Shown here in pieces: positions 1,522 through 3,560 of a DNA stretch of 64,000 nt (positions are counted from its first letter, which is position 1; every line of letters begins with the position of its first letter). A model generated the notes under the pieces. The model saw only the letters and a list, made by a program, of their open reading frames with translations. It searched no databases and was not told where the DNA came from. This stretch comes from Neorhizobium sp. (GTDB lineage: Bacteria; Pseudomonadota; Alphaproteobacteria; Rhizobiales; Rhizobiaceae). Both the position numbers and the translations under genes were made by a program. Location: assembly GCA_028283725.1 (NCBI GenBank), contig JAPWKC010000003.1, positions 682,001 through 746,000 of the forward strand. Direction: 5' to 3'.

Positions 1522-1550
1522 TTGCACAGGCGACGATCCGTCGCTATACA
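1522..1550 (+). promoter_or_regulatory. Predicted sigma-70-type promoter of the leuA leader
   Basis: TTGCAC and TATACA are separated by exactly 17 bases, a good match to the housekeeping promoter consensus. The predicted transcript would start near 1557, about 20 bases before the leader-peptide ATG at 1579. This is the best promoter match in the gap between brnA and leuA. Confidence 0.6.
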
Positions 1551-1578
1551 GCCAGACATGACCATGACAGGCGCGATC

Positions 1579-1683
1579 ATGTCTGACCGTTCGACAACCT
1601 GCCGCTTCGCGGCCGGGTCGCCGGTACTCGCGCTTTCCTCGCTTCTTAGCCTCGACCTTACGCGCGGTTGCCGGGTCCGTTGA
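1579..1683 (+). CDS. Candidate leucine-rich leader peptide (leuL-like)
   Basis: This 34-codon open frame starts ATG and ends TGA. Its middle reads VLALSSLLSLDL, with six leucines in eleven residues (codons between 1627 and 1659). It begins just downstream of a good promoter and is followed at once by strong hairpins, then leuA 150 bases later. This is the layout of leader peptides whose ribosome stalls when leucyl-tRNA is scarce. The ribosome-binding site is weak (AGG about 8 bases upstream). In-frame ATGs also exist at 1558 and 1564. Identification as a leader peptide is inference. Confidence 0.55.
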   Translation: MSDRSTTCRFAAGSPVLALSSLLSLDLTRGCRVR

Positions 1684-1739
1684 GGAGCGCCCGGCGGCCG
1701 AAAAGCCTGCCGGCGTAAGAGCTCCTCGCACTCACTTTT
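1671..1739 (+). promoter_or_regulatory. Candidate attenuator hairpins upstream of leuA
   Basis: An outer stem pairs GAGGAGC (1682-1688) with GCTCCTC (1721-1727). Inside it, 1691-1699 pairs with 1705-1713 across an AAAA-containing loop. A competing stem pairs CCGGG (1671-1675), near the end of the leader peptide, with CCCGG (1689-1693), so the two folds are mutually exclusive. A short T-run (TTTT) follows at about 1735-1739. The T-run is displaced from the stem, so the terminator assignment is tentative. Confidence 0.45.
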
Positions 1740-1835
1740 CAATCGAAGCAGAAGATCTCAAGGCGAGATCGCCATCCATTCGTTACAGGCCTGCGATAAC
1801 GCGGTCACGATGGATGCGAGACGAGGACAGACATC

Positions 1836-3560
1836 ATGGACGCCAAGAATTCCAGCATTTCCGGCAAATCCTCCAAGGGCATGGCCGACGCGGCGGTGAA
1901 ATACCGCGCTTATCCGGCCATCAACATTCCCGACCGTACCTGGCCGTCGAAAGTCATCGACAAGGCGCCGATCTGGTGTTCGGTCGATCTGCGCGACGGC
2001 AACCAGTCGCTGGTCAACCCGATGGGCCACGATCGCAAGGCCCGCATGTTCAAGCTGTTGCTGGACATGGGTTTCAAGGAAATCGAGATCGGCTTTCCAT
2101 CGGCGTCGCAGACCGATTTCGACTTCGCCCGCTGGTGCGTGGAAGAGGGTGGTGTGCCCGAGGACGTGTCGCTGCAGGTTCTGGTCCAGTGCCGTCCCGA
2201 GCTGATCACCCGCACATTCGAAGCGCTGGAAGGCGCCAGGCACCCGATCATCCATTTCTACAATTCCACGTCCGAGCTGCAGCGCCGCGTGGTGTTCGGC
2301 AAGGATGTCGCCGGCATCAAGCAGATCGCCGTCGATGCCGCGAAGATGATCATGGACATGGCGACGAAGGCCGGCGGCGACTACCGGTTCGAATATTCGC
2401 CGGAGAGCTTTACCGGCACCGAGCTGGAAGTGGCGTTGGAGATCTGCAACGCCGTCATCGCCGAAGTGAAGCCGACCGCCGACAACAAGCTGATCCTCAA
2501 CCTGCCGTCCACCGTCGAGATGGCGACGCCGAACATCTATGCCGACCAGATCGAATGGATGTGCCGCAACCTCGACAACCGCGAGAACCTGATCATCTCG
2601 CTGCATCCGCATAACGACCGCGGCACCGGCATTGCCGCGACCGAGCTGGCGCTGATGGCCGGCGCCGATCGCGTCGAGGGCACGCTGTTCGGCAATGGCG
2701 AGCGCACCGGCAATGTCGATGTCGTGACGCTGGCGCTCAACATGTATACGCAAGGCATCGATCCTGAGCTCGACTGCACGGATATCGAGCGGATCAAGGA
2801 CGTCTACGAATATGCCAACGAGATGGTCATTCCCGAGCGCCACCCCTATGTCGGCGAGCTTGTCTATACCGCCTTCTCCGGCTCGCATCAGGATGCGATC
2901 AACAAGGGGATGAAGGCGATCAAGGTCGCCAACCACCCGGTCTGGGAAGTGCCCTATCTGCCGATCGACCCGCGCGATGTCGGGCGTTCCTACGAGGCGA
3001 TCATCCGCATCAACTCGCAATCGGGCAAGGGCGGCATCGCCTATATTCTCCAGCAGGATTTCGGCCTGAACCTGCCGCGCAACCTGCAGGTGGAATTCCG
3101 CGAGGCGATCCAGAAGATCACCGACGAGGAAGGCAAGGAACTGTCGTCGAAGCGCATCCACGAGACCTTCATCGAGCGCTATGTCGAGCAGCCCGGCGCA
3201 CGGCTGAAATTCGTCGATCACCACATGTATCCGGCCGGCACCGACCAGAAGGGCGTGCGGGTGGTGGCAGCCGAGATCACCGATCGCGGCGAGACGAAGC
3301 GGATCGAGGGCAAGGGAACCGGCCCGATCGACGGGTTCATCAATGCACTGTCGACCTATCTGGGTATCGAGCTGTCGGTCGCAGACTATTCGGAACATTC
3401 GCTGCAGCATGGCTCGAATGCGTCGGCCATCGCCTATGTCGAGATGGAACATGCGGGCGGAAAACTCTTCGGCGCCGGCATCAACAACAATATCGTCACG
3501 GCCTCGCTCGACGCGATCGTGTCTGCGGCCAATCTCGTGCTGGGAGATAAAGGGCGCTGA
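1836..3560 (+). CDS. leuA: 2-isopropylmalate synthase LeuA (long form)
   Basis: LeuA condenses acetyl-CoA with 2-oxoisovalerate to form 2-isopropylmalate, the first committed step of leucine synthesis in the cytoplasm. The 574-residue length is that of the long LeuA class. The HMGL-like TIM-barrel domain carries the signature LRDGNQ (52-57) and the metal-binding histidines in LHPHNDRG (His257, His259). The C-terminal 130 or so residues correspond to the allosteric leucine-binding domain. ATG 1836 follows GAGACGAGGACAGAC, which supplies the ribosome-binding site. Candidate attenuation signals lie upstream at 1522-1739. No other leu gene is adjacent. Confidence 0.97.
   Translation: MDAKNSSISGKSSKGMADAAVKYRAYPAINIPDRTWPSKVIDKAPIWCSVDLRDGNQSLVNPMGHDRKARMFKLLLDMGFKEIEIGFPSASQTDFDFARWCVEEGGVPEDVSLQVLVQCRPELITRTFEALEGARHPIIHFYNSTSELQRRVVFGKDVAGIKQIAVDAAKMIMDMATKAGGDYRFEYSPESFTGTELEVALEICNAVIAEVKPTADNKLILNLPSTVEMATPNIYADQIEWMCRNLDNRENLIISLHPHNDRGTGIAATELALMAGADRVEGTLFGNGERTGNVDVVTLALNMYTQGIDPELDCTDIERIKDVYEYANEMVIPERHPYVGELVYTAFSGSHQDAINKGMKAIKVANHPVWEVPYLPIDPRDVGRSYEAIIRINSQSGKGGIAYILQQDFGLNLPRNLQVEFREAIQKITDEEGKELSSKRIHETFIERYVEQPGARLKFVDHHMYPAGTDQKGVRVVAAEITDRGETKRIEGKGTGPIDGFINALSTYLGIELSVADYSEHSLQHGSNASAIAYVEMEHAGGKLFGAGINNNIVTASLDAIVSAANLVLGDKGR

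Follow-up and report, generated by a model that had tools for sequence, protein, structure and literature searches.

Leucine operons of gammaproteobacteria are preceded by a leader, Leu_leader in Rfam, that codes for a leucine-rich leader peptide. In Actinobacteria, the LEU element upstream of leuA is described as a leucine leader with a pseudoknot, a base stem between the leucine run and the Shine-Dalgarno (SD) sequence, and an alternative hairpin (Seliverstov et al. 2005, PMC1262725). The same paper cites mutations in the S. coelicolor leuA leader whose effects were inconsistent with classical attenuation. Because changes to the leucine codons did not act as expected, it proposes that the element is bound by a protein, represented by orthologs of ML1624. 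The leuA leader of S. lividans is reported to be leaderless and, as in other Actinobacteria, to lack a typical terminator (PMC8079986), and the leucine leader before leuA in C. glutamicum is counted as transcriptional attenuation (PMC4046766). The rhizobial trp attenuator rnTrpL/trpL of S. meliloti, probably from the same family as the genome studied here, also joins a leaderless leader peptide to a biosynthetic gene (PMC7298713, PMC10117765).

We analyzed the region upstream of leuA in a 64,000-nucleotide stretch of Neorhizobium sp. DNA (contig JAPWKC010000003.1; hereafter the window). We judge it moderately likely that positions 1558-1727 are an alphaproteobacterial leader of the LEU type, in which ribosome stalling at leucine codons would refold the RNA and open leuA, with control of translation likelier than intrinsic termination. 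The parts of the locus are as follows.

1522-1550, + strand: promoter-like hexamers (-35 TTGCAC at 1522-1527, 17 nt, -10 TATACA at 1545-1550)
1558-1683, + strand: leader ORF of 41 codons, probably leaderless, MTMTGAIMSDRSTTCRFAAGSPVLALSSLLSLDLTRGCRVR followed by the stop
1627-1659, + strand: leucine codon run CTC, CTT, CTT, CTT, CTC, CTT
1665-1675, + strand: 5' arm of helix A, 11 bp with 1690-1700
1682-1688, + strand: 5' arm of helix P, GAGGAGC, overlapping the leader stop codon and sitting in the loop of helix A
1690-1700, + strand: 3' arm of helix A, paired with 1665-1675
1691-1713, + strand: optional inner stem B, which together with P would complete a classical terminator hairpin
1721-1727, + strand: 3' arm of helix P, GCTCCTC, resembling an anti-SD
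1823-1827, + strand: leuA SD sequence GAGGA, which may pair with the leucine run or with the P 3' arm
1836-3560, + strand: leuA, 2-isopropylmalate synthase, type 2

The gene downstream of the leader is leuA, as the original prediction had it, and belongs to type 2. Its product scores 757 bits against TIGR00970 (cut-off 697) and contains the Pfam domains HMGL-like, IPMS_D2 and LeuA_dimer. It also scores 653 bits against structure 1sr9, a 2-isopropylmalate synthase that we take to come from M. tuberculosis.

The start of the leader required revision. A promoter of the form TTGCAC-N17-TATACA had been predicted, followed by a 34-codon frame. Both hexamers are found with this spacing, but a strict sigma-70 consensus scan returned no promoters, and the two hexamers fall below its bar. 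The 34-codon frame (1579-1683, MSDRSTTCRFAAGSPVLALSSLLSLDLTRGCRVR) does exist and places six leucines within eleven residues (LALSSLLSLDL), but its start is probably wrong, and the same frame contains further ATG codons at 1564 and 1558. In 99 of 100 leaders a TTG lies 34 to 38 nt upstream of an in-frame ATG that opens 20 to 50 codons, compared with 9% at shifted positions; the spacing is 36 nt in 55 leaders and 35 nt in 24. This regularity suggests that the leader transcript begins at the AUG itself and is probably leaderless. An SD-like 4-mer precedes 9 of 99 such leader ATGs versus 58 of 100 leuA starts. The ATG at 1558, and not that at 1579, is thus the most likely start of the frame in the window, which gives the leader peptide 41 codons. 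In S. meliloti, 171 leaderless transcription start sites have been mapped (PMC3616915), and the trpL mRNA of that species is described as leaderless (PMC10117765, PMC7298713).

The leucine codons of the leader are conserved, CUU above all. The last of them ahead of helix A (1657-1659) reads CTT in 100 of 100 aligned rows. Among the 505 leucine codons found in the last 15 codons of the leaders, 312 are CTT and 120 are CTC; the leuA gene of the window has 40 leucine codons, of which 29 are CTG and one is CTT. The tail of the leader peptide ranges from ..LLLLGLTRGCRVR to ..LLLLGLIGDRRAR, each followed by the stop, and the N-terminal half is variable. In Rhizobiaceae the last CTT is followed by a fixed A, making CTTA nearly invariant. 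The longer string CGACTTA (codons CGA and CTT, then A) recurs ahead of helix A in many alphaproteobacterial families, for example at loci L137, L138 and L159.

We compared the leuA upstream regions of related genomes, a check that had been set beforehand. The family in our counts is Rhizobiaceae in the wide GTDB sense. A first set of relatives contained the core of the element at 30 of 30 loci. In a further set, drawn from 99 other genera, a recognizable leader was present at 99 of 100 loci and missing from L129, which comes from a genome of 1.1 Mb. Conservation in relatives, whose absence would have counted against the original prediction, was therefore found, as were the leucine codons and compensatory changes in both predicted stems. 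The GAGGAGC/GCTCCTC stem at 1682-1688/1721-1727 is an exact match, and the overlapping stem lies at 1665-1675/1690-1700. Because the 5' arm of P is inside the loop of helix A and the 3' arm of P is downstream of A, the two helices together make an H-type pseudoknot.

Covariation supports both helices. We used an alignment of 89 rows (A2), from which 11 loci with long or misaligned spacers were left out (L080, L086, L101, L115, L116, L117, L125-L128 and L130); the same 11 were omitted from the rhizobial model R1. They remain in a separate count of pairs over 100 rows, and L129, having no leader, is absent from all alignments. Across the 89 rows, 98.9% of the 1513 cells in A and P are paired, and 12 of the 17 pairs have changed on both sides. 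Cells with changes on both sides number 66, against 19.2 +/- 3.0 in shuffles (0 of 500 as high). When the partners were slid by one to three columns, pairing fell to 33-58%. Taken separately, the 11 bp of helix A are paired in 99.4% of cells with both-side changes at seven pairs. For helix P, counted over its six inner pairs, the figure is 97.9%, with both-side changes at five. In the 100-row count each pair of helix A is kept in 97 to 100 of 100 rows, and the seven pairs of helix P, including the outermost, in 87 to 98 of 99 to 100. RNAalifold, which draws no pseudoknots, returned helix A. The stand-alone fold of 1556-1760 was not unusual relative to shuffles (z -0.58), so folding energy is no evidence for the element. 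Between the pseudoknot and leuA, the window also has a small hairpin at 1754-1770 (GATCTC/GAGATC), and by eye its pairs appear to have changed in close relatives.

A pseudoknot placed a few nucleotides downstream of an invariant CUU that is nearly always followed by A could in principle drive ribosomal frameshifting from the leader into leuA. We examined this candidate and rejected it as extremely improbable: the distance from leader stop to leuA start falls in all three frames (35, 35 and 30 of 100 loci), and this spread speaks against frameshifting into leuA.

The region had originally been read as a classical leader-peptide attenuator. Helix A would then be the antiterminator, and P together with stem B the terminator despite a poor T-tract. 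Several features fit such a design. The leader is rich in the regulatory amino acid, with leucine codons just upstream of the helices; A and B overlap and are mutually exclusive; in the window a run of four T begins 7 nt past the P arm; and, judged by eye, a classical layout is seen at several type-2 leuA loci from outside the class. Stem B is also enriched over shuffles, but only slightly (16.3 versus 13.0; p < 0.05 in 21% of the 89 rows, median p 0.15). Many rows have only a weak B, whereas A is strong and P is kept in nearly all. The best-conserved helices form a pseudoknot and not a 2:3/3:4 switch, and in this respect the classical architecture is not supported.

The expected T-tract is mostly missing from the leuA leaders, unlike the trp leaders of the same family. 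We used 30 trpE leaders of the family as a positive control. Downstream of the Trp codons, every one of them had an 8-nt window with at least five T, and 28 had one with at least six. The best 8-nt window of the leuA leaders reached at least five T in 39 of 99 and at least six in 10 of 99. In the 8 nt directly after the P arm, 94 of 100 leuA leaders have four T or fewer. The two groups are less cleanly separated by a stricter count, limited to T that directly follow a strong hairpin: at least five T were found in 5 of 30 trp leaders and 1 of 99 leuA leaders, and 12 of 30 and 29 of 99, respectively, had no strong hairpin under this rule. A terminator consensus scan found no site on the + strand and one terminator-like site on the - strand. 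With the T-tract mostly absent, the + strand free of scan hits and B weak, we regard classical transcription attenuation as unlikely. Termination could also depend on Rho, if the leader ribosome covered or exposed a rut-like stretch immediately past the P 3' arm. The 20 nt that follow P are poor in G (13-15%) and rich in C and A (C 0.37 and G 0.13 in the first 10 nt), which would fit, but C exceeds G over only about 20 nt. Usual rut sites are longer than that, and we consider Rho-dependent attenuation improbable.

Release of translation by a stalled ribosome remains the most likely explanation, and attenuation through an unusual terminator its main rival. The mRNA, probably leaderless, would start at the AUG that opens the leucine-rich leader frame. 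Directly past the leucine codons, the RNA could fold into A and P, with the A 5' arm inside the leader frame and P beginning at the stop codon. When leucyl-tRNA that reads CUU and CUC is scarce, the ribosome would stall in the leucine run and block its pairing. With the ribosome there, A and P could both form, and the ribosome-binding site of leuA would stay open. When leucine is plentiful, the ribosome would travel across A and P as far as the stop codon, or depart. Pairing with the leucine run might then sequester the leuA SD; in the window, the freed 3' arm of P might do so instead.

We modelled these states computationally. When 129 leaders were folded as RNAfold ensembles, the leader segment that paired most with the leuA SD was the leucine run (0.12-0.26 per position; other leader positions mostly had 0.03 or less). 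The run accounts for about 3.8 of 10.3 expected SD pairs, and the remainder form elsewhere. This pairing showed little specificity: each run formed 3.8 bp with its own partner versus 2.8 bp with those of other genomes (p 0.08), and its own value exceeded the others' mean in 48 of 100 cases. Duplex energy gave p 0.037, uncorrected and one of five tests, with controls that were not significant. The actinobacterial set showed no specificity of the run for the SD (p 0.57). Modelled SD accessibility rose from 0.26 in the naked leader to 0.43 when A and P were formed and a ribosome sat on the leucine run (higher in 73 of 100, p 1.7e-9). Part of this rise comes from folding a shorter RNA when a ribosome is bound. 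There was no difference in accessibility between a ribosome at the leucine codons and one at the stop codon (0.43 versus 0.40, p 0.21). In the window itself, accessibility was 0.21 for the naked leader, 0.57 for the stalled state with A and P, and 0.17 with the ribosome at the stop, where the freed P 3' arm pairs with the leuA SD. With the ribosome stalled but nested folding left free, so that the pseudoknot was not imposed, the value was 0.22. As a general sequestrator of the leuA SD, the P 3' arm was rejected: pairing of at least 3 bp is expected in 22 of 100 leaders, although it is strong in the window (4.7 bp).

We compared the element with its actinobacterial counterpart. We fetched 80 actinobacterial leuA loci, all from Mycobacteriales and relatives, and judged the order of parts by eye in 25 of them. 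The leaders in these 25 end in ..LLLGRRDGV and the stop, or similar. Helix A (CCGCGACGGG/CCCGTCGCGG) follows the leucine codons and holds the stop codon in its loop, and helix P (GACCGGC/GCCGGTC) begins just past the stop. The LEU element thus resembles the rhizobial one in lying upstream of a type-2 leuA, in having a leader with a leucine run and no obvious terminator, and in the order of parts, with helix A directly behind the leucine codons, the stop within its loop, and P at or just after the stop. The two differ in detail. Rhizobial helix P is mostly AAGGAGC/GCTCCTT. Rhizobial leaders mostly have 36-41 codons, against about 13-16 in the LEU element, and the median distance from P to the leuA start is 89.5 nt rather than 38.5 nt. 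The LEU element is described with a base stem between leucine run and SD, whereas the rhizobial counterpart of this stem lacks convincing specificity.

In sequence searches, the kinship of the two elements is weak. For the actinobacterial alignment (A3), five of the 80 loci had no regular-expression match and 31 of the other 75 were omitted to limit near-copies, leaving 44. In these 44 rows (42 distinct), 99.9% of cells are paired, but shuffles were as high in 331 of 500 because the sequences vary too little for covariation. A model built from Actinobacteria only was run on 70 rhizobial loci, and its four best matches fell on the element (E 0.004, 0.005, 0.03 and 0.044); weaker matches were mixed. 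Its best match in 30 loci from other alphaproteobacterial families (E 0.14, L158) was also on the element. In the reverse search, R1 matched the element in 2 of 33 loci, with E 0.07 and 0.11. The comparison also raises the protein proposed for the LEU element, since the rhizobial pseudoknot might be a protein-binding operator to which the leader peptide is incidental. A compact, conserved pseudoknot would suit such a role, and PMC1262725 proposes ML1624 orthologs for it. The invariant CUU, the bias towards CUU and CUC and the conserved leaderless frame argue instead for reading by a ribosome, and that paper reports finding no orthologs of ML1624 outside Actinobacteria. We consider a protein operator very improbable.

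The element is closely linked to type-2 leuA within the family. It lies upstream of leuA at 129 of 130 fetched family loci, and type-2 leuA is present in 146 of 151 family genomes (101 of 106 genera). Of the family genomes that have type-2 leuA, 10 were searched with R1, and all 10 contained the element; their genera are also in the training set. Among 29 genomes lacking a close copy of this gene (five from the same family and 24 from other families of the order), R1 found the element in none. Genome G173 has a second R1 match directly upstream of a leuA paralog that is about 50% identical, and by eye a similar leader precedes the leuA paralog of G161. At E <= 0.01, R1 matched 3 of 190 alphaproteobacterial genomes: the window's own, G214 (on a contig other than that of its leuA) and G328.

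In other alphaproteobacterial families with type-2 leuA, R1 gave a match upstream of leuA at 7 of 30 loci (E < 0.02). At the same 30 loci, helix A right after CTTA beat shuffles in 13 and A with P in 10, where the CTTA anchor was picked in real sequences only, shuffles preserved single letters only, and the four loci without an anchor count as misses. A blind scan for A and P was scored against dinucleotide shuffles, and it exceeded their 95th percentile in 23 of 25 rhizobial, 19 of 20 actinobacterial and 3 of 30 other alphaproteobacterial regions sampled. Fifteen type-2 leuA loci outside the class showed no such element by eye, and some of them resemble classical terminators. The best R1 match was E 0.15 among 23 further type-2 leuA loci, which include those fifteen and are what is left of 25 after removing two that belong to the family. 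Leucine-rich leaders near hairpins and T-runs, like classical attenuators, precede type-2 leuA at L297, L306 and L290, all outside the class. Some other alphaproteobacterial loci (L131, L132, L136, L139, L144, L149 and L152) have a second kind of leucine leader, ending in ..LRLTxPxx and the stop or similar. It lies about 225-310 nt before the leuA match, and in some loci its stop is inside a simple GC hairpin. Both kinds of leader seem to occur together at some loci, such as L132, L153 and L155.

We asked how the element maps onto the history of the gene. In a tree of 61 LeuA N-termini (200 columns), a branch with support 99/99 separates Rhizobiaceae, Actinobacteria and most of the alphaproteobacterial sequences from 9 of the 10 sequences that come from outside the class. 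The alphaPK and alpha labels in this tree were assigned by eye. Five alphaproteobacterial rows group with the LeuA proteins from outside the class, including L134 and L138, both of which have R1 matches. The element therefore fits one gene clade only roughly, and the tree does not prove a single origin. We propose tentatively, as a real possibility that may yet prove wrong, that a pseudoknot leader read by ribosomes has long accompanied one clade of type-2 leuA and has remained with it in two phyla, represented by Alphaproteobacteria and Actinomycetota, providing leucine feedback that is free of a terminator.

The element is present in nearly all genera of the family that we examined, has the layout of the actinobacterial LEU element, and is more unusual than a classical attenuator. 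A search of the leader against 4227 Rfam models, at the gathering threshold and at E 10, returned no match, and five actinobacterial loci gave none at the gathering threshold. The rhizobial leader is leucine-rich like the gammaproteobacterial Leu_leader, but it lacks an Rfam match or a visible intrinsic terminator. In the literature, mostly titles and abstracts, we found no leuA leader in Rhizobiales or other Alphaproteobacteria, and an earlier mention is possible. Word searches of four papers (PMC10117765, PMC3616915, PMC1273637 and PMC7298713) turned up no leuA leader in rhizobia in the passages they reached. PMC1273637, a screen for alphaproteobacterial motifs, does mention an ilvB leader peptide and cites Vitreschak et al. 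2004. If our reading is correct, a class of leader-peptide control defined by a conserved pseudoknot would be newly seen in Proteobacteria, and a poorly understood actinobacterial control element would be brought to a large family. Genetics and ribosome profiling are established in this family (S. meliloti, PMC10117765), so the 2005 puzzle of how the LEU element works would become directly testable. Our results also caution against treating leucine leaders as terminator attenuators by default. The model and the 100 aligned rows offer a basis for a new family of the Rfam type.

The surroundings of the leader contain two further features. Immediately upstream of it, in the same direction, positions 938-1457 code for a BrnT-type toxin (PF04365) and a CopG-type antitoxin (PF12441). 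The trpE gene of the window's genome (G000:C2:671721-673871) is located about 10 kb upstream of leuA, and trpE and leuA are some 5-16 kb apart in several other genera too.
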